Origin: Odontesthes bonariensis
Taxonomy: Eukaryota; Chordata; Actinopteri; Atheriniformes; Atherinopsidae
DNA: 64,000 bases
Assembly: GCF_027942865.1 (NCBI RefSeq)
Contig: NC_134515.1
Span: 20,482,227 to 20,546,226, forward strand
Reading direction: 5' to 3'
In this document: piece by piece, positions 1,222 to 54,599 of the stretch
Numbering within the stretch: the stretch's first letter is position 1
Layout: every line of letters begins with the position of its first letter
Program-made: the position numbers and the translations under genes
The notes under the pieces: generated by a model
Told to the model about the DNA's origin: nothing
Seen by the model: only the letters and a program-made list of their open reading frames with translations
Databases searched by the model: none

Positions 1222-4200
1222 ATGGCGTCAGTTTTGAAGGTTTCTATCCTGGATTACTTTAATATTGTGTTTGAAGGTGAGAATGGTAAAATCGAGTCCA
1301 ACTGTAAGGCTTGTGGCACCAGAATCCAGGCGAAACGGAGCGTTACGTCAAACTTCGTTACGCATCTCAAGGTAATGCTTTCAAAAATAGAATGATTGTC
1401 TGTTGAAGAGAAAAAAGAACGAGTGATACGTAAAAGTCTTATTTTGTCTGCAGCAGCTGGAACAGCTGTCTCCACAGCATCTCTTTGTGTACTGCTGGCT
1501 CAGCTGTATGGAGCTGACCAAGTAAAGGCAGTCTGTTGCTTCTCTGCTCGGGGGAGATTAACCTATCTGTATCTGCTTTCACTGAAATGTACACAGCGAT
1601 GAATACACTTGAATAACATTCTTATTCTCCTCTGTCTCTGCCCTATTCAGCGTAAGCACCCAGCAATGTATGATGACTTTGTGAAAAGGAAGGATATGAA
1701 GCGAGAGGGTTATCCAGCTGGCTCCCTGCACAGTTTCACCACCAATGGGGGAAACACCCGCTACTCTCTGCCCATCAGTACTGGAGGAGGAGGAGGAGGA
1801 GGAGGAGCAGGGGCAGGAGGAGGCGTTGGAGGAATGGGAGGTCTTGAGGGAGGAGCGGGAGGAGGCTCTGGAGGAGGGTTGACCAAGTTTGACAGACATG
1901 ACCCTCGCCAGGTGCGCGTTCTAGTCCATTACCATTCAAGTAGCAGTCCTTACGAAACCCTGAAAGTGTTACTTACACGATTCATTGTGGCATGGCAATG
2001 AAATCAGAATGCATTTTGTCAATTCAGGTGATGATTTCTGAGGCGATAGCTAAGATGATTGTGCGTGATCTCCAGCCAGTGTCGGTAGTGGAAAATCAAG
2101 GCTTCAGAGAGTTGCTTCAGCTACTGGAGCCCCGTTATACTCCTGAGCCCCAGCACTACATCCAAAGCCAACTCCTTCCAGCTTACGCCTACCAGGCCCA
2201 ACTTGCTACCCGTCAGGCCCTGGCGTCGGCACATGCTCTCAGTCTCAGCCTGGATCTCTGGAGGGGCTCATCTGGAGCCACTTCAGGGTAAGGAGGTAAA
2301 ATGAACCAAAAACAGCAAAACAACAGCTTGGTTAGGTTCCCTCGCTAATGAGTCCTCTTCTCTTTCTTTCTCTTTAGGTACCTTGGTGTTACTTGTCATT
2401 TTCTTGCATCTGATTGGCAGATGCACTCGGCTCTCTTGGCGTGCCTTCCACTTACTGGTGGCAGCTCAGGGAGTCGCGTGCTTGCGGATTTTGATGAAGT
2501 TTGTCACTCTCACGGTGTGTCAGGGAGAGCATTTCGTGTCATTGCCGACCCATTCCCAAGAACAGCAGCAACAACAGTAAGGCCATGCTGTCTTCCGGGT
2601 TTCTCAGATCCACCTGGGCAAGATGGAGATGACCAAGAGGTGGTGGACAACGGCAACGAGGCAGAGCAAGGGATCAGGAATGGCCATGGTGATGTTGGAG
2701 AGGAGGGAGACTGGGAAGACTCGTGGGAGCAGGGTTTGGGTGTTTCTCGGTTAGACTGTTTCTCTCGCTCCCTGGAGCAGTGTGTCAGAGAGGGACTGCG
2801 CTCCTGTCCACAGATATCTTCCACGCTGGCCAAGGCTGCCTGTTTCTACCAATACATTACCTCTGCTGTGCCACCTGAAAAACTGAGCCAGGTGTTTGAT
2901 AGGTTGATGACTGGAGGACCAGGAAATATCCCTGATACTGCAAGAGACTGGGCTGCTCAGCTTAAGGCAAGTCATTTTCTATTACCAAAGTCATGTTTGA
3001 TGTGCAGGTAACTCATTTTCCACCCCCCATTTTTAGCATTTACACATTTCAAATTATGTATATGGTAACAATATCCCAACAAAGGTCATCTTAGGGCACT
3101 TTACAGAGAAAGGATCAATCTAGTTAAGTCAACTCAATCCAATTCAATATAATCAAATTCTTTATAATTGCATTTGTGTGACGTCAAGTAATAAAGTGTT
3201 GTCTCCATAAGGAAATCGGTGAATTGCATTGCATCTTCATTTCAAGTCAGTCCCCTGTCCCAAGCCTGCTCGGGGGATCGGGCAATAGTGAAGAGGAAAA
3301 ACTCCTTTTATAACTAGGAGAGACCTCCAGCAGAGACAGACTCATGGAGGGTGGCCGCCTGCATCCAGTGTCTCATAGCACTATGATTAAAGGGATGGCT
3401 TACCTTATACAGGCCTGGCTGTCAGCTTTATCATAAAGCCAAGTTATGAGTTTTGAGAGGGTTTTTTACCCCCCAAACCCATATTGGAAGCTGGCTCCAC
3501 AATTTTTAAGCCAAGCGGACGTCTAAACCTTACAGTCCTTACACACTGTAATGTAGATGTAAACAGATACAATGACAGTACCACTCAAAAGTTTCAATAC
3601 ACCTACCTGTGCGTGCAAACTAAAAAGAAGGGGTGTAAATGAAATGTGAACTGTGAACACTGTCATCCATAATAACATTCATTTATTAGACATATGCTTG
3701 CCTAGCTGTTTCTTTAAGAGCATGAAATTTAAATGTTTTTGATAAAAGTTATAATTTCTTGTTTTGATGAAGGTGCTTCGGCGATTGCTGGACTCAGTGG
3801 AGTTCCTGGAGGAGATGAGTGGTCCTGGGGAGCTGGTGCTGAGTAGCACAGAGCGAGCCCTGTTGATGGAGTTCACTGACACTCTGGAGCCCTTCACTGA
3901 GGCCTGGGATATGGTTCATGGAGACAGACAGACAGACGTACAGGCAGACAGACATGTGTCCATCAGCTTGGCTCTGCCCTGTGTCCTCGGCCTCCGTAAG
4001 CATCTCACTGAGACAACAACCCCCCACTGTCCCACCCTCCTGCTGGGCTTGAGCCAGGCTGTGGAGCGTCTGCTGGTCCCTATACTGGAGAACCCCCTCT
4101 ACGTCACCGCAACCACCCTGGACCCCCAGTTCAAGCTCACATGGAGCAGCAACCCTGACTGGCACAGGCAAGTTCTCATTGAAGAGTTATCCAAACAATC

Positions 4201-4615
4201 CACAGCCTCCAGTCCAGTGGATCTCAACACAGACCTTCACCCTCAATCCCAGGTTCTTCCTGTCCCTGCACAGTCTCCAGTCTCCTCACTTTCTCGGCCA
4301 TGCAAGCTGTTCTCTTTCATTAAGCAGAGACCCACAACTCAGGCTAAAAGCCTGGAGCAGGAGTTGGCTGTCTACCTACGCGAGGAACCCACAGATGAGG
4401 AGGCTTTGCATTACTGGCGTCGTAAAGCTATTGACTTTCCTTTGCTTGCCCAGGTGGCCAAAAGAGCATTTACCATACCAGCCTGTGGCACCGTGGTAGA
4501 GAGCATCTTCACTACAGCTGGGCGCCTTCTACTGCCAGAGAGAGGCCGTGTCTTACCAAAGAACCTTGAGACACTCATCTACCTCAAAGCCAACTACAGA
4601 TTATTATGGACCTAA
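1222..4615 (+). CDS. ZBED-like domesticated hAT transposase with BED zinc finger
   Basis: Five exons join to 2,103 nt (700 aa): 1222-1371, 1651-1911, 2028-2287, 2378-2966 and 3773-4615, with a TAA stop. Exon 1 plus the start of exon 2 encode a BED finger (C-x2-C in NCKACG, then HLKRKH). Exon 2 holds a poly-glycine tract at about residues 90-130. Exon 3 onward resembles the hAT RNase H-like fold (SLDLWRG, then GYLGVTCHFLASDW). Exon 5 ends in the hAT C-terminal dimerisation region (LPERGRVLPKNLETLIYLKA). The family are host proteins derived from hAT transposases, mostly nuclear DNA-binding regulators. Clean phases, multiple introns and no terminal inverted repeats argue for a host gene rather than a mobile copy. 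Intron 4 begins GC (AAG|GCAAGT). The motif usually read RW-x-S is replaced by DWAAQL, which suggests loss of transposase activity. It could be a ZBED4-type or another ZBED paralogue, and I cannot tell which. Confidence 0.82.
3080..3400. repeat. old teleost interspersed repeat in ZBED-like intron 4
   Basis: Sequence such as GGAAAAACTCCTTTTATAAC and CTCCAGCAGAGACAGACTCA with a CAATCCAATTCAAT run resembles the repeat near 8890-9550 in the apobec2 intron. The family is common in fish introns. I do not know its formal name, and this copy is diverged and partial. Confidence 0.45.
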
Positions 4616-5180: not shown

Positions 5181-7072
5181 GCTGTGTGCGGTTGGAAGAC
5201 GTGAGTGTGCATGCTTTTGGAGAAAAGCTTAAATTTGCTTCACAAATCTAATTTTAAGCCATATTTTTTTTTCTCCTCAGAATGAAGGCCAGTTCCAATT
5301 CATTTTCATGATCAACATTTTTTTTTCCTCTTCTTTACATTTGAACTTTGAGGAGTTTGAAATGGGTTTGACCCTTTGTCCGCTCCAGAGAACTGGCAGA
5401 GAACAAGCGCTCGTGGCGTAACGGAGACTTCGCTTTGACTGACTTTGAAAAACTTTGAAGGAGGAACGGGGAATGCAGCAGTGTGTGTTTGCCTTTATCC
5501 AAGGACTCCATTAGACAGGGATGGGCCAGTGGGGAGGCAGGGTAATTACAATAATTCCATTAAAGTAAAATTTGAGTCAGCAGGCAGGCAGCTGTCATAT
5601 CCTACATGGCCCCTTCTTCTCCATATAACCTCGACTCACAAACAAAGTACTAATGTACTGAGAAATTAAACGGATAAAACTAGGCTATTTTCGATTAATA
5701 TGAAACCGCAAGCATCAAAATCAGTAAGTTTGAGAATGACCACCAAATTGCAAGAGAGCTTATCCACAGCAGAAACAGTGTAGCTGCTTTTGTTCATGCT
5801 TAAAAACCACCTTAGAACAGGTGTATAAATCTGTGGGAGATACAATAAGAATTCCCTCCTAGATCATAATGATCAAAGTTTGCTGTGATCTTAATGATTA
5901 TCACACCAGGACGTGTCTGTGGATTTGGATGTGTTTCCAGATATCTGTGAGGATGTGTCAGTGCATTCATCTTTAAAGCATGTGTTGCCTGCTCACTCCC
6001 TGGGTGTGTTGTTGTTTGTTATTGTATGTGGAGCAGCTTGAAGCGTTGCTTCCCCCCCCCCCCCCCCCCCCCCGCCTCCCCTCCTCCTCGGGCTGTGACA
6101 GCTCATCTATTTGAGTTAGACGACTGGGCCGGGATGCAGTCCTTTTGGTAATTGCCTCTGAAATGAATTACTTGGCAGAGAGTGAGACTGAGAAAAGGGA
6201 GGAAATTGGAATTGAACTGCCCCCCCATCCCTCCTGCCCTCTCCCTCCTGCCTCAAGTTATTACATCTGCAGTGCAGGGAGACATTTTCCATCTGCACAC
6301 AAATACACACACCCTTGCTGAACCAATTCCTCCCCTCCCCCACACAATGGCCTCGGCAGAGCACCATATTGATGCAGAGCGATTTCAGAGATTGATTGTT
6401 CATGGGCACATGCACAACAGACCACACTGCGCGGATGCACTTTTATTTACAGCACAGGGACAAACGCTTTCCTGCATTTGTTTGTGCTCCTGTGCTTCAA
6501 TTATTCCCCTATTTGCAGTGCCCTTTAGATGGCCTTCCTAATGCCTAATGGGCTGCAGGTCTTGGCACAAACAAAAATGGTGTTCAGTATCTAGAACGCC
6601 TTGGTTACCCCATGAATACAGCCAAGCAATGTTTATTAATAACCTGCCTGTTGCTGGCCCGATGACAGCGAGAAAGCCCGGTGGATTAAAGAGCTACCAC
6701 TGTTTCAGGCAACACATTTATAGAAAAAGCATTTTTTTTACTTCTCTTGTTTTGGCAACTGCTTAAAACGCTGAGGAAATTTAAGTCCATCTCTTACCTG
6801 TACTCCCCATGCAGCACATTTGTACTCGGTAATTTGTTGTCATTTAGCCTTTTAGCAGTTAGACCATGGAAAGGGGTGAGCGAGTTAACTGAGCGGCCTG
6901 CCCCCACGCTTGGCCAGACATGAACATGTTTTGACTCCTACCTCAACACACAATAGGGTCTATTTCTGTAAATGCACTAGGGTTATCACCCCACTTACAT
7001 TGACTCTCTCTCTCTCTCTATTTCTGTCACCCCTTCACTTCATCCAGCACTCTCACCCACTTACACAAAATC
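5181..7072. other. intergenic region before apobec2, including a C22 tract
   Basis: I recognise no gene. The only notable structure is an uninterrupted run of 22 cytosines at 6052-6073, G-rich on the other strand. A CT-rich microsatellite stretch lies just before the apobec2 ATG at about 7005-7020. The apobec2 promoter and any non-coding first exon should lie in this interval, but I see no TATA box. Confidence 0.4.
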
Positions 7073-10000
7073 ATGGCCGACAGAACCAGCCGACTGGGTG
7101 TTAAGAGGAAAGAGAAAAAGGTGGAAAACAAAGCAAAAGAAGAAAAGGATACGGAAAAGGATAAGGAAAAGGTTAAGGAAAAGGATAAAGGAAAGGAGAA
7201 CATTGTGAAAAAGGCAGACAAACTCGTGAAGAGCCAGGAGAAGACCCCAGAGCCCCCCAACACTGATGAGGAGAAGAGGAATGGGGAAAGTGAAGGTGCA
7301 ACAGGACCAGAGGCAAATAACAGTGAGGATAATGGAGAATTTCAACCCATAGAGCTGCCTCCATTTGAAATTGTCACAGGGTGGGTAAGACTTAATATAT
7401 GAACCAAAATGATGAAGTTGGAGTCTGTTTGTCCCTGTAAGCATGTTTGCTCTTTAACAAGTCTCATTAATTTCTGTTGCCACCATGATTCATAATGCAT
7501 TATTTTAGTGAGGAAGAATACCATTGGCTTGCACCTGCTATCTTTCCCAGCCCAGTGTTAAGAATAGAGATGAGTCACAGAGCCAACATAGACGCTTTAT
7601 CACTCTGCTTAGCATCCGTACCCCAGTTTCCATCCTTCGAGATTGCTTGATATCAAAGCTATAAGAGATCTATTTCTGTGATACATCTGGCTCTTTATGT
7701 GCAACATAACAAAAGATAAATTAAGCAATAAAGGGGGATAATGTGCTTTGTGTGAGTCAGAAATGGACTGGCACAATCACTGATTAGATCCTGAGATGAC
7801 TTGGAAGCTTACAAAAGTAATGGAAACATCAGATTGCTTAGTGGTGGTCTAGTTATCATAAAGCATGTTATTGTATTGTACTGTCATGCATCATTACAAA
7901 AAGGTGAAATATTACTGGTCAGCTGATACATGTAACCTCAGAGATGACAAAGTGTTTTGTGATATAATTGAAAAGAAAACATTTGATTGGTGACAATTCT
8001 CACTGTGACTCTACATCAGGGAGCAGATGAGCCCATTCTACTTCAAGTTTCAGTTCAGGAATGTGGAGTATTCATCGGGGCGGAACAAAACCCTGCTGTG
8101 TTTTAGAGTGGACACAGCAGGAGGCAGCACAGAGCCTCTGATAGGCTACATGGAAGATGAGCATGCCACAGCTCATGCGGAAGAGGCCTTCTTTCAACAG
8201 GTGATGAAAGCTCTTTCTTGTATAGTGCAAAATATTTTTGCAAAATCAAAATGTTGCTTTGAGTAAAAGGGAGCCTGATCTACAGTAGGCATGAAGTAAA
8301 AAATGACACATTTCGTTCATATTTTGGGAACGTTACTTTTTATTTGTATTTTTCACAGTAAAGAAAAAAGGGGTGGTGCATGTGTGTGTGTGAAGCAAAG
8401 TTTTTCAAGGTTAGTACTCACATAACCTCTGATCAGTCTAGTCTCACAGTATAAACTTTTTATAGCAGCTAGAAGGTTTTCAGTTCTCGTTTGGGGACTT
8501 TTCACCTCTTCTTATCTCAAAAGGCTTGTAGTTCTTTAAGCTCCTGGGGCCATCTTTTCTGCTGTCTTGAGTTGTATCCACAGATTTATTATTAAGTTCA
8601 GACTGGGGAACAGTGAGGGCCATGGGAAAACCTTCAGCTTCTGCCTCTTGAATTGATCCTTTGTGTCTTTTGAGGTTTGTTTCGCATCATTATGCTGTTG
8701 CTGAAGCCGTCCTCTTTTCATAGCTTTATTACGAACACTTCCAAATCTTGCAGGCATTTCGTTGAGTCCATTCTTTCTTCTGACGTTGAAATAGGTATGT
8801 GCCACAGACTGAAGTTCAGTTCACTTGAGTTTTTTTTATACGTGATGCCGGATCACAGTACAAATCATCTCAAGACCCTTCATAGAGAAGGCAAACATGC
8901 ACACACCTTACATACAATCCAATTAAATTTATTCCAATCCAATCCAATCCAGTAAAATTGTTTTTATATACTGCCTGTTCATAAATAGTTGTCTAGATTT
9001 ATAAACAAACAACATTTAAAAAGATTGCATTGAATCCCCAATCTCCCATGCATGGTATTGCTGGCAACCGTGGAGAGAACTAACACCCTTTTTACAGGAA
9101 GGCAACTTTGGTAGAACCAGACTCAGGAAGGGTGACCATCTGCCTTGACCAGTAGAGCAGTGGGAAGACAGGACAGAGATTCAAACAAACACACACAAAA
9201 AAAGTTTAGGGATTCCTGATATTGGAAAGAAAAAATACAACACAAAGTTAATGGTGGCAGTAATGACATATATAAACATGAAGAGTACGAGAGTATAGTG
9301 AGGAGAAGTGCTCAAGGCCTCATGGGATGTCCCTCATTGGCCAAGGCTTATGGCAAGATAACTAAAGTCTTGATAACCTGAACCAGCCCAAACTATGACT
9401 TTTATGAGAAATAACTGTTTTAAACCGAATCCTACAGCTTATCAGGGAGTCTGCTTTCTGAACCCAAGCCGGGAACTGGTTCCACAGGAGAGACGCCTGG
9501 CAGCTGAAGGAAATGCTGCAACACAAACCCATAGCACAATCCATCCATCCCTGTGTTTAAAGAGGTGTTCTCTTCATGAAATATGCACCTTTTTTTCCTC
9601 CATACCTTTGCGAGTTGAAGCTCAAAGGTCCCATTTTGACTTAATCAGTTGATTGGACTTGTTTCCTAAATGAGATCTGCTTGTATTGATTTTCACCAAA
9701 TGACTTCTGAAATGGAATTTTGTTTTCCTGAAGGTCTTCTCTTTTCCGCAACCGGCTCCAGAGGCTGCAGAGCAGTTTCCAGCACAGAGTTTCCTTTCTC
9801 TATCTTTTAAATCAGGGTTTATTATCAATTGAGCAGATATAGTATTCTTAAAACTATGAAATCTTTATCATCTGGCCTTTTTCTCATGATAATTTTAAAT
9901 GAGCTCTAGCTCACACAAGTTGATTAAGATGTTGGCAAGTTAGTTGAGAGCTCAAATCATTTTAGGGTGACCAAACTTCTGGCTGGTACTCTTTTTCCTT

Positions 10001-10448
10001 CTTAAACTCTTAGATTGCCTCCCTCTCCAGAAAATGAATTAATGAAACTAAAAAAAGTACATTCCTTGCTTATTGTGTTCATAAATCTCCACTGCTGATT
10101 TTCTAGGTGCTCCCTAACTCCTCCCAAGAGTATGACGTCACATGGTATGTGTCATCCAGTCCCTGTACAGCGTGTGCAGCCAAGTTGACGAACATCCTCC
10201 AACAGCGCAAAAAGCTTCGTCTCTGCATATTCTGCTCCCGTCTCTTTGAGTGGGAGGAGCCAGAGATAGTGGAAGGCCTTAAGGCTCTGGTGCATGCTGG
10301 CTGCAAGCTGCGAATGATGAAGCCAGCTGACTTCCTGCATGTCTGGGAAACGTATGTGGAGAAGGAGGAAGATACCTTTACGCCATGGGAGGATTGCCAG
10401 GAGAATTATGACTATTATTTGGAGAAACTGTCTGACATACTCAAGTAG
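7073..10448 (+). CDS. apobec2: APOBEC2-family cytidine deaminase-like protein
   Basis: Three exons, 7073-7380, 8020-8200 and 10107-10448, join in frame to 276 aa ending at TAG. From about residue 92 the protein tracks vertebrate APOBEC2: IELPPFEIVTG, FKFQFRNVEYSSGRNKT, GYMEDEH, WYVSSSPCTAC, FEWEEPEI, ending in KLSDILK. The zinc site is intact, with H155-A-E157 in HATAHAEEAFF and P182-C183-x2-C186. APOBEC2 is a muscle-enriched member of the AID/APOBEC fold whose deaminase activity is disputed. Residues 1-90 form a highly charged Lys/Glu-rich extension (repeated KEKDK-like steps), making the protein about 50 residues longer than the mammalian form of about 224. The first in-frame ATG at 7073 sits just after a pyrimidine stretch and is the only good start. 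The gene is convergent with the Fc-receptor-like gene. Confidence 0.93.
7381..8019 (+). other. apobec2 intron 1
   Basis: Intron bounded by ACAGG|GTGGGT and CATCAG|GGAGCAG. I see no other feature in it. Confidence 0.8.
8536..8805 (-). mobile_element. Tc1/mariner transposase remnant in apobec2 intron 2
   Basis: The minus strand encodes a degraded copy of the C-terminal half of a Tc1-type transposase. The block QQHNDAKQTSK corresponds to the usual HDNDPKHTSK region, and VFPWPSLFPSLNLIINLW corresponds to WPSQSPDLNPIENLW. The terminal catalytic Glu (PIENLW) is replaced by Ile, so it is inactive. I could not place its inverted repeats with confidence. Confidence 0.6.
8890..9550. repeat. teleost interspersed repeat in apobec2 intron 2
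   Basis: It starts with TCCAATCCAATCCAATCC-type steps near 8928. It continues through blocks typical of a widespread fish repeat, such as AGAACCAGACTCAGGAAGGG at about 9113, GCTTATGGCAAGATAACTAA at about 9346 and CCGGGAACTGGTTCCACAG at about 9469. The family resemblance is from memory and its formal class is not known to me. A partial relative lies at 3080-3400. Confidence 0.5.
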
Positions 10449-11512: not shown

Positions 11513-14500
11513 TCATTGTTGAAAGGAAACCAGCGCACCGCCATTTTCTGTTGCATCTTGGCCGTTAGTCATCACAGCTGAGGAAAAAGAGATAGTTCAG
11601 TCAGTTGTGTTTCATCAAGAATCTGACACAGCATGACACATCATGCTCAAAGTAAATGAAAATGTATTACCTTGGTCCTCTCGTGAGGTTATTGGTAATG
11701 GTGTTGTTTCACTGCAGATTTCTAGATTATCATCCACTTCTGCGTATCAGATAAACAGAAACTGTCAACATATACTATGACAATGAATAATTCTTTAAGC
11801 AAATAAGTAAAAGACTATTTCGTATTTGCTCCATGTTTTCTGCAATGGCAAATGAGTTATTTATCCATTAATTTAGAAAACAATCATGTCAATCTATTTT
11901 TTTTTTAATGCAGCTACAAAGGAATATCAGATGATGTCTGTTCTACTCATTTTTTTTTTTGTTTTTTTGTTTTTTTAATACCTTTGGGCCCGGCCTTCAA
12001 AGCTGAATCAGTGATGTACTCAACCAGTGGACAGGGTGCATCTGCAGCAGGAAGAAGAAGGAAAGAGCTTGAGTTTACAATAAACTATGAGAAACTGACC
12101 CAAGGCAGTTTCACAAACTACTTTCAACTACTTTCAACTTTCAACTAATGTCAAAAAAACAGCTCAGAATAGAATCACTGGTTGAGTTGTAATTGCACCG
12201 TGAAGACGGTGACAAACCCATAGTCACTAGAGGTGTTAACATACCAGTCGAGTCCTTCAGCTTCGTCATGCTCAGAAACAGTTCGCTCTCATCTGGTTTC
12301 TCATCATTAGCAACTATGTGACAAGAAAAGAAAGAAGTCAAATGACAAGTAACTGTGGTTTTTATTTGTTCCATTTTACACAAAATGTGCGTCACATCTA
12401 CAGCTAAAATTAGTTTTGAACTCCTGACACAAACCTTTGTCATTTCTCTGCAGAATGCATCGCCAGCTATCCATTACTTTTCATGCTTTCTTTATGGTAT
12501 AGAGTAGATATTTCGCAGAGATTCAGAACAGTGCACAGCTGCAGGACCGGTGTGCAGCTAAACAACTGTCTGGCCTTGGATATAGCCCTAATAATATTAC
12601 GTACAGCATCTTTAGAAGTGATGCGCTCTAAGATAAGTTTAAGGCTAAAGCCGAACCTGGTTTGCGGAAGATTCTGAGGAATATGCATCCAAGGAAGATG
12701 GCGATGATGCCAAAGAAGAGACAGCCAGAGATGGAGAGAAGGACTCTTCTCTTTAAGACTACAAATTAAAAACAAAAATCAAGAATAATAGCAAGACAGA
12801 ATGTTTTTAGATAATAGCTAATAACATAGAGAGCACAGTTATACTCACGAAGATTCTTTGTCTTGTAAGACTGGCTGCTTTGTGAATAGGATGGTCTCCC
12901 GTGACGGACGCCCTGGCAGACGTACAGACTCTGCTCTGGGTCATTCTGGGGTGTGACCTTATGTGTCTCTGCGGGAGGCAGATCAAGTTTTTCTCCCTCT
13001 CTGAACCTGTTTTAAGAGGGTTTTGTTGAATTTTCTGGACTGTTTTTAATTCATTTTCAGAAAGGTGAGAATCCACACTTGTCATTGGTGGTATTACCAG
13101 GTGTAGTTCCATGAATTGTCGTCCGCCACTTCACACTTGAGCAGTAAGCTGTCAGTGGAGAAGGCCTCTGACCAGCTTGTTTGCAAGATTATAATAGCCT
13201 GTGGGCGCGCTGCAACAAACACAACATTGGCTGTAATAACAGACGCTCAACAGCAGAACAATGAAAGAAAGAAACCAATAATCGTACCACTGATTTTGAG
13301 GTCTACAGGTTGACTCTGGCTTGATTTAAAGACTGTATGTTCTCCTCTTTTAACCTGACATTTATATGATCCCGTGTCTGTTGTCAGAGCAGAACCGATG
13401 TTGTGATTGTTTCCAGATGTGGGCATCGGACTGTCATTTTTGAACCACATATAATCCCATCCAGATGAAACATTGATGTGACAGCTGAAGGAGACCGAAT
13501 CTCCAGTGTGCATCAAACTGGCCTCGGGATTCTGCACAATTGTGACTCCTGGTGTTGCATCTGAGTGTAGATAATGATAAAAAGGAAAAAGTATAACAGC
13601 TTTTGAAAGTATATTTTGAGGAGAATACTTCTTACTTTCTACCTTTAAGGAACGAAAAAAAAAAAAATACTAAAGAAAGTAATGAAAAGAAAATGTCTCA
13701 CCATAAACATGAAGTGCAACATTGGAACTGAAGCTGCTTGTGACAGACCTGCCCTTCAGATTCCCTGAGCAGCTGAACATTCCACGGTGCGAGGAGGAAG
13801 AAGAGCTGATGGTAAGAGTGGTTCCATCCATTTCAGAAGTCACTATTTCATCAAGCCGGACCTCTTCTGCATCTTTGTACCATGTATATGTCCAGCCAGA
13901 GCTTCCCTGCATCCCACAGCTCAGCTTCACTGCCTCATTGGGGAACACATCCAACCACTTGGTTGCATTCTTCAGTGATGGAACGGGAATTTCTAACGAG
14001 ATAGGGAAATATTACAACAATTTACAGATCCTTATAGTACATACCTTTGAAAGTCGTTTACTTTGTTTGGTTTATAAAATTAGGCTGAGGTTTTGGTCAT
14101 ATTGGTAATGTTTTTCTAAATTGAAATCCATTATCGCTACTCAAGTTCTTATTAAATTTACATGAATTCATATTCATGGTTTCTCTTTTTTACAAAAGAT
14201 TGTGTGTGTTGCATCCACTTCTCATACAAATGATCTCATCTTTACCCAATAACTCCACCTATACTCTGCCCACAACGAGGCGTCCCCCTGCAAGTGTTCT
14301 GCTATACCACAACATCCTGTTTCAACAGAAAATGCATAGAATAACGGAAGCATGGTGCTTTTGCACCTATATTAAAACAACCTGTTGAGTTGTTTTCTCA
14401 TTTCTTATCTTTTTAACGTACAGTAAGAAAACTGACAGATTGATTGAAATAACAAACATTTCTCCTTATTACAGCATGACAACATTGCTTATTTTGACCT

Positions 14501-17500
14501 ACTGTGAACATCCTGTTGTATTTTCAGACTGCGTCTTGTTGACTTGTATGTATGCTTCTTTGTAGAAGACTGATCTACTTCATTTTTAAGATGTGTTTTT
14601 GTGTTTGTTATTTATTCTATGTTAAGCCTTGATTTTATATTGAACCTTGAGTCTGTAACAAAATTAATGCTTGCGTTGTACGGTGACTTAGCTGGTGACA
14701 GGGCGTTATAGATATGCTTACCAGAAACCTGCAGGGAGTAAGTGTCACTATCCTCAGTGTAGAACGGGCCTTCTCCTCGCTTGGCTTTGCACCGGTACTC
14801 TCCACTGTTAGAATGAACTATAGAAGCTATACTGTAAGTATCATTGTTGGATGCTTGAATTTCCGTCCCATTATGGTACCACACATAATCCCATCCGGAC
14901 GACATGTCAACTGTGCATGTGAGGAGGACAGATTCTCCAGGGTACATCGTGGCAAAGGAAGGACTTTGGGTCACAGTGGGCTTAGGCTTGCTTGCTATTC
15001 ACAGGGAAAAAAGAAAAGATAACATTTCAACGATACAATATACTACCCATGCTCAGGAAATACAGTAAAAATTATTTTCATAGGTTGTTTTTTTTTCAAC
15101 GTCGTGACCATGTGTACTATTTTCTGGGTAAGAGACAAAAACATTATTATCATCTTTTATACTTGTCTGTGCTATAACTGTATTAATTCCTCGCCAGGCT
15201 TACTCTGCTTACTCTATCATGTGTAAGACGTGCAGAGCATGTTAAATGGTCTGCTATTGCCTTCATTGACTCCCAGCATCTAAACTGCCAGTTTACGCTC
15301 ATGTGTCTCTACCATGTGGAGGACAACGTCTGGTTTTCACATTTTGCATGGCTCTGTGTGATTTGGATGGTTTTCACTTATGCCGATTTCATTTCACAGG
15401 CATTGGGGTTTACACCCCCCTTTTGGCAGTCTGCAGACAATCTGCTGTCAGATTTTTTTCTTTCTCTAAGGTAATCACTTTGACTATCATCAACATTGTC
15501 GTATTGTTTTTCATACTGTCATCAAAGAAATATTGATCGTATCTGCATTAATGTTAAATGAATGTAATGCTGTACAGAAACATGAAAACTCACAATAAAC
15601 TTGCACATCAGCTTTGTTGCTGTCTCCAGAGCTGACTCCTCTGGATTTCAGGTGAGCTTTGCAGGTATATTGTCCTTGATCGGTTTGAGTGACTGAAGTG
15701 ATTTTGAGCGATGGTCCTTCTTTTTTCAGCTCCACTCCATTTCTGTACCAGGTGAACGTCCACTCCGAGCCGCTCACTTCACAGCTAAGCTCCAGTACCT
15801 CATTTTCAAACACATCTGGCCAGCCAGTCAGCTGCTTGAGAGTTGGTGTCGGTGGATCTGAAAAATGTAGACATCCTCAAATCAAAGTCCACTAAAATGA
15901 ACTGCGTCATGAAATTACAGCTTAAAGGAAGATAAAATATCATGTGCATCATCAGCAGACTAAAGTACAACACATTCATTCAAAAATGCATCCGGGCTCA
16001 ATTAGATGAATATCAATAAACTGGTCATTCTGCCTGTGCTGCAGTGTAACCCGGCAAGTGATGCAACACATATGCTTACCAGAAACCTGCAGGGAGTAAG
16101 TGTCACTATCCTCAGTGTAGAACGGGCCTTCTCCTCGCTTGGCTTTGCACCGGTACTCTCCACTGTTAGAATGAACTATAGAAGCTATACTGTAAGTATC
16201 ATTGTCGGATGCTTGAATTTCCGTCCCATTATGGTACCACACATAATCCCATCCGGATGACACACTGACTGTGCATGTGAGGAGGACAGATTCTCCAGGG
16301 TACATCGTGGCAAAGGAAGGACTTTGGGTCACAGTGGGCTTAGGCTTGCTTGCTATTCAGAATAAAGAAGAAAAAGAGAACATTACACCATTGCATAGAA
16401 ACATTATGCATCGGGTAACATAGTAACTCCAGTATGACTGTTTTTTAGTTTTTTCAAATTCAGAATCAGATGTGTAAGTTAAACTCTGGGATTCTGTGAG
16501 CAGCTGACAGCTCTCAGAACACAATGCTTAGGAATGTTAATCCTTGATTGTTAACGCATTAACTGTCATAATGATTTGATCAATTAAATTATACATATAG
16601 GTTTTCTGACTGCCAGTATGGCTGCAGCTTGAGTTGAATCTTTTTTTATTATTATAAAGTTCAACATCCTGCTTTCAAATAAAAAAAAAAGAAAATAAAA
16701 TGTTAGTTGTGTGGGTCTCACTGTGTCAGTCGTGTTTTTTAACCCTTCAGCACAAAGGAGTAAAAATGCAATGATGGTTGAGAGGTTTAGGTAGCTACAG
16801 GAGCGGTAAAAAATAGCCCCTTGTAAAGTAGCCTCTTTTATTGAATGCTATTCTGTACTGAAGCATGAGCACCATTTACTTACTATAAACTTGCACATCA
16901 GCTTTGTTGCTGTCTCCAGAGCTGACTCCTCTGGATTTCAGGTGAGCTTTGCAGGTATACTGTCCTTGATCGGTTTGAGTGACTGAAGTGATTTTGAGCG
17001 ATGGTCCTTCTTTTTTCAGCTCCACTCCATTTCTGTACCAGGTGAACGTCCACTCCGAGCCGCTCACTTCACAGCTGAGCTCCAGTACCTCATTTTCAAA
17101 CACATCTGGCCAGCCAGTCAGCCGCTTGAGAGTTGGTGTCGGTGGATCTGAAAAATGTAGACATCCTCAAATCAAAGTCCACTAAAATGAACTGTGTCAT
17201 GAAATTATAGCTTAAAGGAAGATAAAATATCATGTCCATCATCAGCAAACTAAAGTACAACACATTCATCCAAAAATGCATCCAGGCTCAATTAGATGAA
17301 TATCAATAAACTGGTCATTCTGCCTGTGCTGCAGTGTAACCCGGCAAGTGATGCAACACATATGCTTACCAGAAACCTGCAGGGAGTAAAGGTCACTATC
17401 CTCAGTGTAGAACGGGCCTTCTCCTCGCTTGGCTTTGCATCGGTACTCTCCACTGTTAGAATGAACTATAGAAGCTATACTGTAAGTATCATTGTCGGAT

Positions 17501-20500
17501 GCTTGAATTTCCGTCCCATTATGGTACCACACATAATCCCATCCGGATGACACACTGACTGTGCATGTGAGGAGGACAGATTCTCCAGGGTACATCGTGG
17601 CAAAGGAAGGACTTTGGGTCACAGTGGGCTTAGGCTTGCTTGCTATTCAGAATAAAGAAGAAAAAGAGAACATTACACCATTGCATAGAAACATTATGCA
17701 TCGGGTAACATAGTAACTCCAGTATGACTGTTTTTTAGTTTTTTCAAATTCAGAATCAGATGTGTAAGTTAAACTCTGGGATTCTGTGAGCAGCTGACAG
17801 CTCTCAGAACACAATGCTTAGGAATGTTAATCCTTGATTGTTAACGCATTAACTGTCATAATGATTTGATCAATTAAATTATACATATAGGTTTTCTGAC
17901 TGCCAGTATGGCTGCAGCTTGAGTTGAATCTCTTTTTTTTATTATAAAGTTCAACATCCTGCTTTCAAATAATAAAAAAAAAAGAAAATAAAATGTTAGC
18001 TGTGTGGGTCTCACTGTGTCAGTCGTGTTTTTTAACCCTACAGCAGAAAGGAGTAAAAATGCAATGATGGTTGAGAGGTTTAGGTAGCTACGGGAGGGGT
18101 AAAAAAATAGCCCCTTGTAAAGTAGCCTCTTTTATTGAATGCAATTCTGTACTGAAGCATGAGCACCATTTACTTACTATAAACTTGCACATTAACTATG
18201 TTGCTGTCTCCAGAGCTGACTCTGGATTTCAGGTGAGCTTTGCAGGTATACTGTCCTTGATCGGTTTGAGTGACTGAAGTGATTTTGAGCGATGGTCCTT
18301 CTTTTTTCAGCTCCACTCCATTTCTGTACCAGGTGAACGTCCACTCCGAGCCGCTCACTTCACAGCTAAGCTCCAGTACCTCATTTTCAAACACATCTTG
18401 CCAGCCAGTCAGCTGCTTGAGAGTTGGTGTCGGTGGATCTGAAAAATGTAGACATCCTCAAATCAAAGTCCACTAAAATGAACTGTGTCATGAAATTATA
18501 GCTTAAAGGAAGATAAAATATCATGTGCATCATCAGCAGACTAAAGTACAACACATTCATCCAAAAATGCATCCGGGCTCAATTAGATGAATATCAATAA
18601 ACTGGTCATTCTGCCTGTGCTGCAGTGTAACCCGGCAAGTGATGCAACACATATGCTTACCAGAAACCTGCAGGGAGTAAAGGTCACTATCCTCAGTGTA
18701 GAACGGGCCTTCTCCTCGCTTGGCTTTGCATCGGTACTCTCCACTGTTAGAATGAACTATAGAAGCTATACTGTAAGTATCATTGTTGGATGCTTGAATT
18801 TCCGTCCCATTATGGTACCACACATAATCCCATCCGGATGACACACTGACTGTGCATGTGAGGAGGACAGATTCTCCAGGGTACATCGTGGCAAAGGAAG
18901 GACTTTGGGTCACAGTGGGCTTAGGCTTGCTTGCTATTCAGAATAAAGAAGAAAAAGAGAACATTACACCATTGCATAGAAACATTATGCATCGGGTAAC
19001 ATAGTAACTCCAGTATGACTGTTTTTTAGTTTTTTCAAATTCAGAATCAGATGTGTAAGTTAAACTCTGGGATTCTGTGAGCAGCTGACAGCTCTCAGAA
19101 CACAATGCTTAGGAATGTTAATCCTTGATTGTTAACGCATTAACTGTCATAATGATTTGATCAATTAAATTATACATATAGGTTTTCTGACTGCCAGTAT
19201 GGCTGCAGCTTGAGTTGAATCTTTTTTTTTATTATTATAAAGTTCAACATCCTGCTTTCAAATGAAAAAAAAAGAAAATAAAATGTTAGCTGTGTGGGTC
19301 TCACTGTGTCAGTCGTGTTTTTTAACCCTTCAGCACAAAGGAGTAAAAATGCAATGATGGTTGAGAGGTTTAGGTAGCTACGGGAGGGGTAAAAAATTTA
19401 GCCCCTTGTAAAGTAGCCTCTTTTATTGAATGCTATTCTGTACTGAAGCATGAGCACCATTTACTTACTATAAACTTGCACATCAACTATGTTGCTGTCT
19501 CCAGAGCTGACTCCTCTGGATTTCAGGTGAGCTTTGCAGGTATACTGTCCTTGATCGGTTTGAGTGACTGAAGTGATTTTGAGCGATGGTCCTTCTTTTT
19601 TCAGCTTCACTCCATTTCTGTACCAGGTGAACGTCCACTCCGAGCCGCTCACTTCACAGCTGAGCTCCAGTACCTCATTTTCAAACACATCTGGCCAGCC
19701 AGTCAGCCGCTTGAGAGTTGGTGTAGGTGGATCTGAAAAAATTCCCCACAAAGATATCACCTCGTTAAAAACTAGTGTTCTATCTGAAATGGCCGTGTTA
19801 AAGAATGCTGTTAATATGTGGAGTGAGAAAAAGACACAAACAAGAAGTACAAATATGTCACAAATTAATGCTTTCTAACTTTTGTCTCTTACACTGAAAT
19901 CCAGTTATTATACTGATAATATATGTTTTTACATCAGTTTTATTTTCATCTTTCTTGAGAAACTACTGTGATGATATTATCAAAACCAGCAAACAAAAGC
20001 AAAATAACTGCAGAACCCTGTTGATAATGATTTATCAATCATTATTATCCAAATTCAATGGATTAGCATAACAGTAAATGATCTTTTCACTGACTATAAT
20101 CAAGTATTGCCTTGCCTTTAGGAAGCAGGGTTTTATCACAGTGTAAGTGCTTGAATAAGAAGAAAGCAAGTGGACTTGCTTTCTTGGTTCATGAAGATGT
20201 TTGACCCCATATCCAAAAGGATTCTTCTGTTCTAACTGATTTGTGGGGAGTTTCATGCTTATAAACTGTTTTGGGACATTTACACCTTTCGAGTCACTGA
20301 AGTCGCATGCGTGTCATTGTCCAACCTGTCAACTCTCAGTGTTGTTTGAGTTTCTTGACACCGTTGTCACCCCACGAATACTGTGAAATATCTTTGAGAA
20401 CCAATATTAATATTAATAATAATCATTCCAGTTGCTTTTAATACATGGATTTAGGATTTCCTGAGAATCTACAGCAACATTAGTTTTAGAACATCCCATT

Positions 20501-21451
20501 TTAAATTAAAACCTTTAAAAGTGTGTAAATAAGCTGCTACATGATGATTGCACAGTGTTAGCGGTCAAAGTCTTACCATAGACAGTTGCTGGCAGAGAAC
20601 TGGCCACTGGCCTTATGTCTGAAGTCTGGGTGACTAGTGGGAGAAAGTAGACATATGAACTTACTTTGGATGTTATGGATAACTGAGCTCTAGTTGCCGT
20701 TATAAATGATACAGTTAGCCATTTTAATACATCTCATTTGGGAAACTATGAGAGGCATTTTTAAATAAAATTCTAAAAATTCAAGACAATACATTCTTAT
20801 GTGACAGACACTCGGAGTATTTTAAACCCAATCTAAATCACCATTTTTGCTCAGGCTACCATGAAAAAAAGCCAGCTGAAGATGACATAAGGATGGACAA
20901 AATAACCTGACTTGTTAAAAGTATGCGTAAAAACTTTAGGTTCACATAGTGTGAAGGGTACTTGCACTAGCTGCTGTTTAATTATAGGAACTGCCAAACA
21001 CATGACAAAAAGGTACTTCATGTTCCTCATGATAATTTTAGTCATGTTCTACTTCCCAAACATGGCTTTGGTTTGATTTTAAAACATCTCACGTACTACG
21101 GACACAGCTTGTGTGTTTTCAGTCGACAAGAGAATGGGATGGTTTTTAAAGTTTACAGAAACACCCAACCAGCTTCTGTCAAATCAATACAAACTGCTTG
21201 TGTAATGCTGTGAGAGATATGTTTTCCTACCATAGACATTGTCCTGAGCTGCACAAACAGCAGTCAAATCTGTCAGATCAGATAGTGATAAATATTCAGT
21301 GAGAATGTCCACACATGTTAGAAATGTAGAGAAAGTTCACCCAAAAAAGGATTAAAACAGTGAAAAACTTACGTAGGACAGCAAAAACCTTGAGAAGCCA
21401 CATTTTCCATCGAGCCCCACGTATGAAGGCTGTATTGCTGTGTTGAGTCAT
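11513..21451 (-). CDS. Fc-receptor-like Ig superfamily receptor, 11 Ig domains
   Basis: Twenty exons join without a stop to 3,498 nt (1,165 aa). Leader and linker exons are 21373-21451, 21231-21248 (18 nt) and 20577-20633. Alternating Ig exons of two types follow: A 19469-19732, B 18661-18933, A 18178-18438, B 17370-17642, A 16884-17147, B 16080-16352, A 15594-15857, B 14722-14994. Then come C 13702-13992, D 13288-13560 and E split as 13098-13209 plus 12849-13006. The transmembrane exon is 12657-12758, and tail exons are 12245-12313, 11982-12041, 11671-11739 and 11513-11577. Apart from the intron inside E, every junction is phase 1, as in FcR/FCRL genes. Each domain has the Cys / W-Y / Y-x-C pattern (LSCEV, TWYRNG, GQYTC). 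The membrane span is SISGCLFFGIIAIFLGCIF, with no charged residue. The tail has one Tyr (VEYITD) and no ITIM or ITAM. Start choice (21451 or the internal Met 48 nt later) is uncertain. Teleost FCRL-like proteins are surface receptors of immune cells. The ligand is unknown. Confidence 0.85.
12657..12758 (-). other. transmembrane exon of the FcR-like gene
   Basis: This exon encodes LLKRRV, a 20-residue hydrophobic span (LLSISGC to GCIFL) and then RIFRKP. The basic residues on both sides fit a single-pass type I anchor. Its donor (CCAG|GTTCGG) is weak. The exon closely resembles the membrane exon of other teleost FcR-like proteins that I know of. Confidence 0.8.
12849..13209 (-). other. membrane-proximal Ig domain split by a 90-bp intron
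   Basis: The two halves (13098-13209 and 12849-13006) flank a GTAATA...ACAG intron. Spliced, they read ...NSWNYTWFREGEKL... and ...LYVCQGVRHGRPSY..., an intact C2-type Ig domain. Read through, the region has several stops, so the intron must be removed. The summed length of 270 nt keeps the frame. Confidence 0.82.
15594..19732 (-). repeat. tandem array of the A-B Ig exon module (about 1.29 kb unit)
   Basis: Three head-to-tail units start at about 15594, 16884 and 18178, followed by a fourth A exon at 19469-19732. Spacings are 1290, 1294 and 1291 bp. Exons and introns are nearly identical between units, apart from small poly-A length changes and scattered substitutions. The B exon at 14722 and the intron after it are more diverged. 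Gene-internal duplication by unequal crossing over is the likely origin. Confidence 0.92.
19733..20576 (-). other. FcR-like intron between linker exon and first Ig exon
   Basis: Sequence diverges from the tandem units immediately upstream of the A exon acceptor at 19732. No additional Ig exon or open frame is visible. Confidence 0.6.
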
Positions 21452-21781: not shown

Positions 21782-22916
<1,135 letters not shown>

Positions 22917-23126: not shown

Positions 23127-23898
23127 TCAGGCTGCGGCTACACGGAAACGTTTTTCACTGTAAACGATACTTTTTCTTATCGTTTCGCTGTCGCGGCCAC
23201 ACGGAGCCGGCGTTCCCACTACCCCAAAACGATAGTTTTTGAAAACGGGTTCCAGAGTGGGAAAGTTTGAAAACGGCCTCGTTTCGTTTCCATTGTTACA
23301 GCTAAAACGTTTTTGCGTCAGTCACACGTTGACGCTGTGAGCCAATTTTAACACTTCTCTATTGTCTCACAGCGTGGCGTGACACAGTGGCGTGTGTACT
23401 GCATCGTTTCATCGTTTTCGTCTGGACAGCAGCGCGTTTCCGTGTGGTCGCAAGAACTTTCGTACCCGTTTTCAAAAAAAACCTCGTTTCGTTTTCGTGT
23501 AGCCGTAGCCTCAGGCTGCGGCTACACGGAAACGTTTTTCACTGTAAACGATACTTTTTCTTATCGTTTCGCTGTCGCGGCCACACGGAGCCGGCGTTCC
23601 CACTACCCCAAAACGATAGTTTTTGAAAACGGGTTCCAGAGTGGGAAAGTTTGAAAACGGCCTCGTTTCGTTTCCATTGTTACAGCTAAAACGTTTTTGC
23701 GTCAGTCACACGTTGACGCTGTGAGCCAATTTTAACACTTCTCTATTGTCTCACAGCGTGGCGTGACACAGTGGCGTGTGTACTGCATCGTTTCATCGTT
23801 TTCGTCTGGACAGCAGCGCGTTTCCGTGTGGTCGCAAGAACTTTCGTACCCGTTTTCAAAAAAAACCTCGTTTCGTTTTCGTGTAGCCGTAGCCTCAG
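23127..23898. mobile_element. perfect tandem dimer of a 384-bp inverted-repeat element
   Basis: Two copies with a 384-bp period (GCTGCGGCTACACGG at 23131 and 23515) look identical by eye. Each begins GGCTGCGGCTACACGGAAAC and ends with the near inverse (GTTTTCGTGTAGCCGTAGCC), so the unit has terminal inverted repeats of about 20 bp. TCAG occurs at 23127-23130, 23511-23514 and 23895-23898, bounding and joining the copies. It has no coding capacity, so it is a MITE-like non-autonomous DNA element. I cannot assign the superfamily safely. Confidence 0.85.
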
Positions 23899-26066: not shown

Positions 26067-28517
26067 AGTGAGCTGGGTGGCAGCCAAAGGCGGAGATCTT
26101 GGCGGTCTGATCCTCGGCTACTGAAGCTGGCTCTTGGCTCTCTGTTGGGGAAGGAGCCTGAGCTGGTGCGCGAGGCTGAGCGGTTCCGGCTAGATGTAGT
26201 CGGACTCACCTCGACGCATGGCTTGGGCTCCGGAACCAGCCTCCTCGAGAGGGGTTTGACTCTCTTCCACTCTGGAGTTGCCCGTGGTGAGAGGCGTAGA
26301 GCCCCCCGGCTGTGCGCCTGTACATTGGGGTTTACCCCGGTGGACGAGAGGGTAGCCTGGGGGGACGTGTCCTAACTGTTGTTTGTGCTTATGCACCGAA
26401 CAGCAGTTCAGAGTACCCACACTTTTTGGAGTCCCTGGAGGAGGCACTGGAAAGTGCTCCTCCAGGAGACTCCCTCGTCCTGCTGGGGGACTTCAATGCT
26501 CACGTGGGCAATGACAATGAGACCTGGAGAGGGGTGATTGGGAGGAACGGCCCCCCCAATCTGAATCAGAGTGGTGTTCTGTTATTGGACTTCTGTGCTC
26601 GTCACGGACTGTCCATAACGAACACCATGTTCAGGCATAAGGGGGTCCATATGTGCACTTGGCACCAGGACATCCTAGGCCGCAGCTCGATGATCGACTT
26701 TGTGTGTCTTGGACACTCGGGTGAAGAGAGGGATGGAGCTGTCAACTGATCACCACCGGTGGTGAGTTGGCTCCGCTGGTGGGGGAGGAAGCTGGTCAGA
26801 CCTGGCAGCCCCAAACGTATTGTGAGGGTCTGCTGGGAACGTCTGGCGGAATCCCCTGTCAGGAGGAGTTTCAACTCCCACCTCCGGCAGAGCTTCAACC
26901 ATGTCCCGGGGGAGGTGGGGGACATTGAGCCCGAATGGGCCATGTTCCGTACCTCCATTGTTGAGGCGGCCGACCGGAGCTGTGGCCGTAAGGTGGTCGG
27001 TGCCTGTTGTGGCGGCAATCCCCGAACCCGCTGGTGGACACCAGTGGTGAGGGAAGCCATCAAGCTGAAGAAGGAGTCCTATCGGGCCTTTTTGGCCAGT
27101 GGGACTCTGGAAGCAGCTGATTGGTACCGACAGGCCAAGCAGAACGCGGCCTCGGCGGTTGCTGAGGCAAAAACTCGGGCTTGGGAGGAGTTCGGGGAGG
27201 CCATGGAGAATGATGAGGGCGGGGCTCTGCTGACCTCAACTAGGGACGTCGTGAGTCGGTGGGGGGAATACTTCAAGGGCCTCCTCAATCCTACCGATAC
27301 GCCTTCCGATGAGGAAGCAGAGTTGGGGAACTCGGACATGGGGCCTCCCATTTCTGGGGCTGAGGTTGCTGAGGTGGTCAAAAAACTCCTCGGTGGCAAG
27401 GCCCCGGGGGTGGATGAGGTTCGTCCCGAGTTCCTCAAGGCTCTGGATGTTGTAGGGCTGTTGCGTGGACATCGGGGGCAGTGCCTCTGGACTGGCAGAT
27501 CGGGGTGGTGGTCCCCCTCTTTAAAAAAGGGGACCGGAGGGTGTGTTCCAACTATAGGGGGATCACACTCCTCAGCCTGCCTGGTAAGGATCCGCCGGAT
27601 AATCGGATCTCGGATTCAGGAGGTGCAGTGTGGTTTTCGTCCTGGCTGTGGAACATTAGACCAGCTCTATACCCTCAGCAGGATCCTGGAGGGTGCATGG
27701 GAGTTCGCATGTGTTTTGTGGACTTAGAGAAGGCGTTCGACCGTGTCCCTCGGGGACTCTTGTGGGGGGTGCTCCGGGAGTATGGAGTGCCGGACCCCTT
27801 GATATGGGCTGTTCGGTCTCTGTATGACCGGTGTCAGAGTTTGGTCCGTATTGCCGGCAGTAAGTCGGACATGTTTAATGTGAGGGTTGGACTCCGTCTC
27901 GGGGTCTTGTTCACGAGTGAGGGACGAATGGAGCAGGAGATTGACAGGCGGATTGGTGTGGCATCTGCAGTGATGCGGGCTCTGCACCGGCCCGTCGTGG
28001 TGAAAAAGGAGCTGAGCCAGAAGGTGAAGCTCTCAATTTACCGGTCAATCTATGTTCCTACCCTCACCTATGGTCACGAGCTGTGGGTAGTGACCGAAAG
28101 AATGAGATCGCGAATACAAGCGGCCGACATGAGTTTCCTCCGCAGGGTGTCTGGGCTCTCCCTTAGAGATAGGGTGAGAAGCTCGGTCATCCGGGAGGAG
28201 CTTGGAGTAGAACCGCTGCTCCTCCGCATCGAGAGGAGTCAGATGAGGTGGCTCGGGCATCTGGTGAGAATGCCTCCTGGATGCCTCCCTGGTGAGGTGT
28301 TCCGGGCCCGTCCCACTGGGAGGAGGCCCCGGGGAAGACCCAGGACACGTTGGAGAGACTACGTCTCTTGGCTGGCCTGGGAACGCCTCGGGGTCCCCCC
28401 AGAAGAGCTGGAGGAAGTGGCCGGGGACAGGGACGTCTGGGTTTCTCTGCTTAAGCTGCTGCCCCCACGACCCGACCCCCGGACAAGCGGAAGATAATGG
28501 ATGGATGGATGGATGGA
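26067..28517 (+). mobile_element. RTE-like LINE, internally deleted, with 12-bp target-site duplications
   Basis: Plus-strand frames encode an AP endonuclease region ([30 protein letters not shown]) and a reverse transcriptase region (GKAPGVDEVRPEFL, PLFKKGDRRVCSNYRGITL, CGFRPGCGTLDQLYTLSR, FVDLEKAFDRVPRG). A C-terminal region TGRRPRGRPRTRWRDY follows. The protein is broken across frames with at least three deletions. Near 27900 the text jumps from VGLR to LGVLFTSEG, removing the part that carries the catalytic F/Y-x-D-D box. The 3' end is GATAATGGATGGATGGATGG-like, as in RTE elements. Target-site duplications TAATTAAGTTCA lie at 26055-26066 and 28518-28529. The clade call is from motif memory. 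Confidence 0.85.
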
Positions 28518-45519: not shown

Positions 45520-45583
<64 letters not shown>

Positions 45584-53865: not shown

Positions 53866-53907
53866 CACGATCACAGACAACTCTGTGCTGAGATCCAGAA
53901 TCCTTGG

Positions 53908-53916
53908 TTATATATA
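53908..53916 (-). promoter_or_regulatory. candidate TATA box of mybph
   Basis: The minus strand reads TATATATAA 43 bp upstream of the ATG, consistent with a muscle-gene TATA promoter. The implied 5' UTR would be only about 15-20 nt, which is short, so an upstream non-coding exon cannot be excluded. Confidence 0.4.
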
Positions 53917-54593: not shown

Positions 54594-54599
54594 TTTATT
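54594..54599 (-). terminator. candidate nav1 polyadenylation signal
   Basis: AATAAA on the minus strand, about 2.3 kb after the nav1 stop codon and before mybph begins. Other weaker signals exist nearer the stop, so the position is provisional. Confidence 0.4.

Follow-up and report, generated by a model that had tools for sequence, protein, structure and literature searches.

Matching exons and non-matching introns in the fourth module pair of an Fc-receptor-like gene of Odontesthes bonariensis

Introduction

In the Xenopus XFL proteins a single domain type, D3, is repeated as many as seven times, and frequent exon recombination between genes has been inferred; mammalian FCRL1-6 carry their signal peptide on two exons of 30 and 21 bp, an arrangement to which only a fraction of Xenopus genes conform (PMC2413239). 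Four FcRL5-like genes have been reported in zebrafish (PMC4016189), LITR and FCRL5-like receptors, distantly related to FcR/FCRL, have been found in many fish (PMC4810170), and two-domain soluble FcgammaR homologues are also described in fish (PMC9699129); FCRL5 is up-regulated in resistant steelhead (PMC7901748), and an FCRL5 gene of akame is tabulated among genes with genetic variation (PMC11346364). In complement receptor 1 (CR1), 28 of 30 complement control repeats sit in four long repeats, and repeat insertion or deletion gives size alleles in people (PMC5736761). Domain-limited gene conversion has been described for the N domains of CEACAM (PMC8860441), and a conversion tract in dog CEACAM runs into intron and 5′ flank (PMC2110893). 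In this work we analyze an Fc-receptor-like gene of the fish Odontesthes bonariensis, located in a stretch of 64,000 nucleotides (hereafter the window, in whose positions all coordinates are given unless otherwise stated) of RefSeq assembly GCF_027942865.1, contig NC_134515.1, positions 20,482,227 to 20,546,226 of the forward strand. Eight of the eleven immunoglobulin (Ig) domains that it encodes are arranged as four B-A pairs; three pairs lie in nearly identical genomic units, and the fourth shares their exons and not their introns, which points to gene conversion.

Set beside FCRL and XFL genes (PMC2413239, PMC4016189), the receptor gene has phase-1 Ig exons (ten of its eleven domains), a two-exon signal peptide, an uncharged transmembrane type and separate tail exons in common with them, but it repeats a two-domain pair, splits its last Ig domain by a phase-2 intron and has a tail without YxxL/I/V. 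The first of its signal peptide exons is 79 nt long, or 31 nt counted from the second Met, and the other 39 nt, and the 21-nt exon is not matched. With teleost LITR and FCRL5-like/CD22-like receptors (PMC4810170) it would share the standing of a putative fish Ig-superfamily leukocyte receptor, and related domains are abundant on another contig, C24, of this genome; the array intron i1 is unique to the receptor gene in the genome. Like CR1, the predicted product is a receptor at the cell surface whose modules, each of several domains, are repeated, although complement control repeats are not homologous to its domains and size alleles are known for CR1. The likeness to CEACAM lies in conversion that affects a single Ig-domain region within a family of immune receptors; there it acts between genes, whereas here it is inferred between exons of one gene. 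No title retrieved from the literature dealt with this gene or with a fish FCRL built of an A-B module array; the search did not extend to most subscription journals.

Results and discussion

Module array

The exons of the four B-A pairs are closely alike in DNA sequence (97.0-98.5% identity among B1-B4 and 96.3-99.6% among A1-A4). A fifth, old pair, B5-A5, has 51-55% DNA identity to the other copies, from which both exons are separated by a synonymous divergence (dS) of about 2.3 or more, with one comparison beyond estimate. The original prediction, that a module of two domain exons was multiplied in tandem, is supported. As copying of a genomic unit this accounts for pairs 1-3: the three units, counted from B to B, have lengths of 1294, 1291 and 1290 bp and identities of 98.1-98.8%, with 38 differing alignment columns distributed over exons and introns, and across them i1 (531-535 bp) is 98.3-99.3% and i2 97.3-98.7% identical. 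Unit copying does not extend to pair 4, whose exons match and whose introns do not. The elements of the array are as follows.

18439..19732, minus strand: unit 1, 1294 bp; B1 (19732-19469), i1, A1 (18933-18661) and i2; Pfam Ig_3/Ig_2/I-set on B1 and A1
17148..18438, minus strand: unit 2, 1291 bp; B2 (18438-18178, with an in-frame 3-nt deletion), i1, A2 (17642-17370) and i2
15858..17147, minus strand: unit 3, 1290 bp; B3 (17147-16884), i1 (16883-16353), A3 (16352-16080) and i2 (16079-15858)
15594..15857, minus strand: exon B4; 97.0-98.5% identity to B1-B3, with a 3′ flank that differs from theirs
14995..15593, minus strand: intron i3 (B4 to A4), 599 bp; differs from i1 save for a probable old match in its last ~124 nt
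14722..14994, minus strand: exon A4; 96.3-97.4% identity to A1-A3, neither flank closely similar
13702..13992, minus strand: exon B5; Ig domain of B type, old and diverged (54.6-55.2% identical to B1-B4 in DNA)
13288..13560, minus strand: exon A5; Ig domain of A type, old and diverged (50.9-52.8% identical to A1-A4 in DNA)

Exon-limited likeness of the fourth pair

Intron i3 is 47.5-47.7% identical to the three i1 copies in a multiple alignment and 46.4% pairwise, and the 222 nt after A4 give 44.5%; these values lie within the range for unrelated DNA, i1 and 20 unrelated window segments averaging 44.3% identity (41.0-50.7). At four exon borders (B1 5′, B4 3′, A4 5′ and A4 3′) the close resemblance to the other copies is lost at the border itself or no more than about 10 nt beyond it, and A4 stands as an island of identity the size of one exon. 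The dS to copies 1-3 is 0.017-0.052 for B4 and 0.051-0.069 for A4. Plain constraint fails to explain the likeness of the B and A exons, because B5 and A5 in the same gene did diverge. Crossing-over in B alone could not have made A4 alike either, because A4 has a similar flank on neither side, and conversion or a double crossover would be needed. Because the close match is confined to exons in pair 4 and at the 5′ edge of B1, an exon-limited exchange acting on an older module pair is needed beside unit amplification, and the likeness of pair 4 points to gene conversion as its form.

The distribution of differences among exon copies also bears on exchange. A4 and A1 differ at 9 positions, 6 of them packed into 10 nt, a clustering matched in 2 of 200,000 permutations. 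The exon copies have 23 variable columns in total, 3 of which represent one deletion, and the groupings that these columns imply conflict with one another: in exon B, positions 25 and 71 join copies 1 and 3 and positions 244 and 247 join copies 1 and 2, while in exon A the grouping at position 147 conflicts with that at positions 203, 252 and 253. Such conflicts are as expected from exchange, and recurrent mutation could give the same with so few sites. Several points weigh against exon-limited exchange. The variable columns are few, positions 25 and 71 are transitions, with 25 in a CpG context, for which recurrent mutation is possible, and on the donor side of A4 the identity continues past the exon for about 10 nt of intron, so that the tract is not purely exonic. 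This last observation also bears on whether A4 was copied from a spliced or reverse-transcribed message instead of genomic DNA. An exon-shaped tract with neither flank closely similar would suit that origin; we nevertheless regard it as very improbable, given the entry of identity into the intron and the intron that still parts B4 from A4, which a message would have joined.

Intron i3 is probably an old relative of i1, although the evidence is mixed. When anchored at the acceptor, the i1/i3 alignment extends over 124/122 nt with a score of 26, higher than that of any other among 91 intron pairs (runner-up 13); blastn aligns 126 nt at 62% (E 0.001); the local alignment, with 88 of 131 positions identical, has a score of 23.6 that none of 300 shuffles reached (best 23.3); and 25 of 32 nt match locally at the donor end (1 of 300 shuffles). 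On the opposite side, the local match is not significant after removal of the last 40 nt, being reached in 24 of 300 shuffles of the 3′ part and in 134 of 300 of the whole. Trimming of the last 25 nt leaves a score of 13 (0 of 200 shuffles), and an unrelated intron pair also reaches 13, both being the best of 55. The donor-anchored score of 10 is level with three pairs and exceeded by one at 11 among the 91, and the trimmed donor-end score was reached in 6 of 200 shuffles.

The simplest history of the array would be plain amplification of one B-A unit to four, followed by replacement of the B4-A4 intron and of the flank after A4 through insertions or deletions, and i1 and i3 are indeed similar in length (531-535 versus 599 bp). 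Replacement would nevertheless have to halt at three exon borders (B4 3′, A4 5′ and A4 3′), no common transposon is seen that could have supplied the new DNA, and the resemblance of the last ~124 nt of i3 to an old relative of i1, mixed as that evidence is, does not suit it; we consider this history unlikely. In a genome search that skips very common words, i1 has three matches, all in the receptor gene, and i3 and the intron after A4 have one each, namely themselves. A common-transposon source of either sequence is unsupported. Midway along the intron before B1, away from the exon border, lies an old repeat fragment with 26 further genome matches at 69-84%.

Proposed history

The observations can be accommodated by a history in which an old tandem duplication would have placed two B-A modules side by side, after which their introns diverged. 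Their B and A exons would have stayed alike, or become so, through exon-sized gene conversion, with the oldest pair, B5-A5, escaping and diverging. The exons being by then the sole long homology between modules, unequal crossing-over in exon B could have copied B-i1-A-i2, yielding (B-i1-A-i2)x3-B-i3-A through a recent triplication of one module, and phase-1 flanks would have kept all products in frame. The explanation as a whole, in which old modules, exon conversion and then unequal crossing-over shaped an Fc-receptor-like single-pass surface receptor with a binding or avidity function, is one that we hold to be reasonably likely.

A broader proposition, which we put forward tentatively and consider doubtful, is that exons and not genomic units are the currency of recombination at this locus, with conversion homogenizing the B and A exons over the long term while introns drift, and the exons acting as repeated crossover sites that change module number. 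If true, receptor length would be a fast, self-maintaining and frame-safe polymorphism. Recent frame-neutral module copies, combined with pair 4 introns that separate exon conversion from unit duplication, make the locus a small, naturally occurring system in which the growth, uniformity and variation of immune-receptor ectodomains can be tested.

Assembly and copy number

Units that are 98-99% identical could in principle arise from an assembly artefact, either as a wrong unit number or as mis-expanded alleles. We judge this improbable: the units differ at 38 alignment columns in exons as well as introns, frame and splice sites are intact in all copies, and the window contains no N, in an assembly of 945 Mb in 187 contigs (C24 35 Mb, C4 43 Mb). 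Simple collapse is unlikely because the contigs are few and these two are long. The genome searches, conducted on this one assembly, had no second allele of the receptor locus among their scored candidates. Variation in module copy number between individuals, as put forward in the original prediction, would be a plausible expectation.

Relatives in the same genome

A genome search with the A domain, in which 150 of 207 candidates were scored and counts are hence lower bounds, produced at least 72 matches, with 10 in the receptor gene, 46 on C24, 14 on C4, one on C7 and one on C16. The relatives of the receptor gene thus lie mostly on another contig, C24, which carries many related domains alternating in two types; no other match on C15 was among those scored. 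Seven 10-kb stretches of C24, of eight fetched, were checked for internal DNA repeats, and two of the seven (L010 and L014) contain module duplications like those of the receptor gene. Chosen for their duplicated A-B-like pair, these two have introns 99.4% and 99.0% alike and exons 94.8-98.0% alike, a pattern that reads as ordinary unit duplication and of which pair 4 of the receptor gene is the reverse. It weighs against this contrast that the control was obtained by aligning approximate stretches without a gene model. Module amplification looks usual, not exceptional, for members of the family in this genome, the exon-limited identity of pair 4 being the less ordinary part.

In a tree of 27 domain rows from the same genome, the B rows group with domain C (83/76) and A1, A4 and A5 group together (83/78); the deep branches are weak, and the branch leading to domain C is very long. 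Two further stretches, L012 and L013 (G000 contig C24, 7.107-7.127 Mb), consist of tandem Ig-receptor DNA copies that are 97.7-98.3% identical and spaced at about 3.2-3.4 kb, as would befit a recently expanding cluster.

Gene structure

The gene model was rebuilt on the minus strand with explicit splice sites. It spans 21451-11513 in 20 exons, which comprise 3,519 nt including the stop codon and stay open throughout, encoding 1,172 aa (1,156 aa if translation starts at the second in-frame Met); the twenty in-frame exons and eleven Ig domains of the original prediction, which had estimated about 1,165 aa, are thereby recovered. The exons follow the order SP1, SP2, L3, B1, A1, B2, A2, B3, A3, B4, A4, B5, A5, C1, C2, transmembrane and CY1-CY4. 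Five B-A pairs and the split domain C make up the Ig domains, ten of them on one exon each and the eleventh (C) spread over C1 and C2. All 19 introns are GT-AG, and 18 are in phase 1, with phase 2 only in the intron between C1 and C2, within the last Ig domain. The claim that flanking introns are in phase 1, rendering gain or loss of modules frame-neutral, was confirmed for all nine introns that border the eight module exons. Outside the array, the model comprises the following features.

21373..21451, minus strand: exon 1 (SP1); start codon and beginning of the signal peptide, with a second in-frame Met 48 nt downstream
21231..21269, minus strand: exon 2 (SP2), 39 nt; end of the signal peptide, as read in translation
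20577..20633, minus strand: exon 3 (L3), 57 nt; short 19-residue linker
12849..13209, minus strand: membrane-proximal Ig domain C; C1 (13209-13098) and C2 (13006-12849), with a 91-bp phase-2 intron between them
12657..12758, minus strand: transmembrane exon; hydrophobic stretch without charged residue, as read in translation
11513..12313, minus strand: cytoplasmic tail; CY1 (12313-12245), CY2 (12041-11982), CY3 (11739-11671) and CY4 (11577-11513, with stop)

A search for phase-1 exons that are open, bordered by splice sites and marked by the Ig cysteine-tryptophan-cysteine pattern returned B1-B5 and A1-A5 and no additional Ig exon, and tblastn at E up to 1 gave no paralogue match in the window outside the receptor gene.

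Family assignment

Judged by its similarities, the receptor gene is most like Fc-receptor-like genes and does not constitute a new receptor type, in agreement with the original prediction. Of 250 PDB sequences, FCRL5 ranks first for the B1-A1 pair (7e-29), with CEA a close second (2.9e-28), and the A profile places FCRL5 first and CEA third. For domain C the top PDB match is FcgammaRI (its first domain), and Fc gamma receptors account for every one of the first 23 PDB matches. A likeness to domain 1 is unusual for a domain beside the membrane, since mammalian Fc receptors carry domain 1 at the outer end. Five of the eleven domains (B1, A1, B5, A5 and C) were run singly against Pfam and all fall in Ig families, with domain C below the curated cut-off (23.1 versus 30 for Ig_3). 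A point against the assignment is the B profile, which ranks titin first, FCRL5 second and CEA third, leaving B alone ambiguous.

Fold comparison was based on an AlphaFold model of the A domain, with a mean predicted local distance difference test (pLDDT) of 84.7; the B-domain model, at a mean pLDDT of 63.4, was too weak for use. Among the best 50 of 214 Foldseek matches of the A domain at E <= 0.001, CD22, FcgammaR, FcepsilonRI and CEACAM are mixed, and these matches do not separate FcR from CD22. Membership of the fish CD22/Siglec or CEACAM kind would be in keeping with the top two Foldseek matches of the A domain, which are CD22 domains 1-3 (FcgammaRIIIa is third and FcgammaRIIb seventh), and with the rank of CEA, close second for B1-A1 and third for the B and A profiles. 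The whole protein also attains 58.6 bits against Pfam V-set (cut-off 26), a sum of weak pieces in which no single stretch passes. CD22 and CEACAM, however, carry an N-terminal V-set domain, and none is present here: B1 scores 23.7 against V-set, as a partial match below the cut-off of 26, and 45.0 against Ig_3. The Fc gamma receptors that fill the first 23 PDB matches of domain C argue in the same direction, and we deem a CD22 or CEACAM identity rather improbable.

Cytoplasmic tail and predicted function

The tail has only one tyrosine, in EYITD, and its exons CY1-CY4 contain no immunoreceptor tyrosine-based inhibitory, switch or activation motif (ITIM, ITSM or ITAM). No hidden ITIM exon was found either: the raw translation of 12800-10450 includes five ITIM-like strings, all outside the model exons. 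Of the features of the inhibitory (TM2) class of FCRL, the uncharged segment and separate tail exons are present and the YxxL/I/V tail motif is absent; because the tail lacks this motif, the predicted receptor is not placed in that class.

The protein is probably a single-pass surface receptor borne by leukocytes, with an ectodomain predicted to form a rod of five B-A pairs and the membrane-proximal domain. It carries 11 N-glycosylation sequons, two apiece in A1-A4. Repeated near-identical domains would provide reach and several equal binding sites, and hence avidity for a multivalent ligand, for which immunoglobulin, a host glycoprotein or a microbe are candidates. Because there is no ITIM or ITAM and no charged membrane residue, a role in binding or adhesion, as a decoy receptor or in signalling via a partner appears most likely.

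Other features of the window

An AID/APOBEC-type deaminase gene lies at ~7004-10448 on the plus strand, convergent with the receptor gene. Its open reading frame (ORF) at 10107-10448 matches Pfam APOBEC2 first, narrowly over NAD1, and among solved structures APOBEC3G first, with APOBEC2 close behind. Also on the plus strand, a hAT-transposase-derived ORF (Dimer_Tnp_hAT) occupies 3755-4615, which we take to be possibly part of a domesticated ZBED-type gene, and LINE-like reverse-transcriptase ORFs at 26300-28500 were recognized by reading alone. The minus strand harbours, at ~44000-63000, Ig-containing ORFs that on reading resemble a myosin-binding protein, the one scanned (46643-47008) being an I-set domain, and a NAV1-like ORF (AAA_lid_NAV1) at 57786-58187.

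About 330 bp upstream of the receptor start codon, positions 21782-21884 hold a GT dinucleotide array of ~51 copies. Further upstream, 23127-23898 is an exact tandem pair of a 384-bp unit (384/384 identical). With 40 of 1,484 first-look candidates scored, this unit has at least 45 genome matches, 42 of them at 98-100% identity, and it is probably a recently active repeat element that lies in tandem here.

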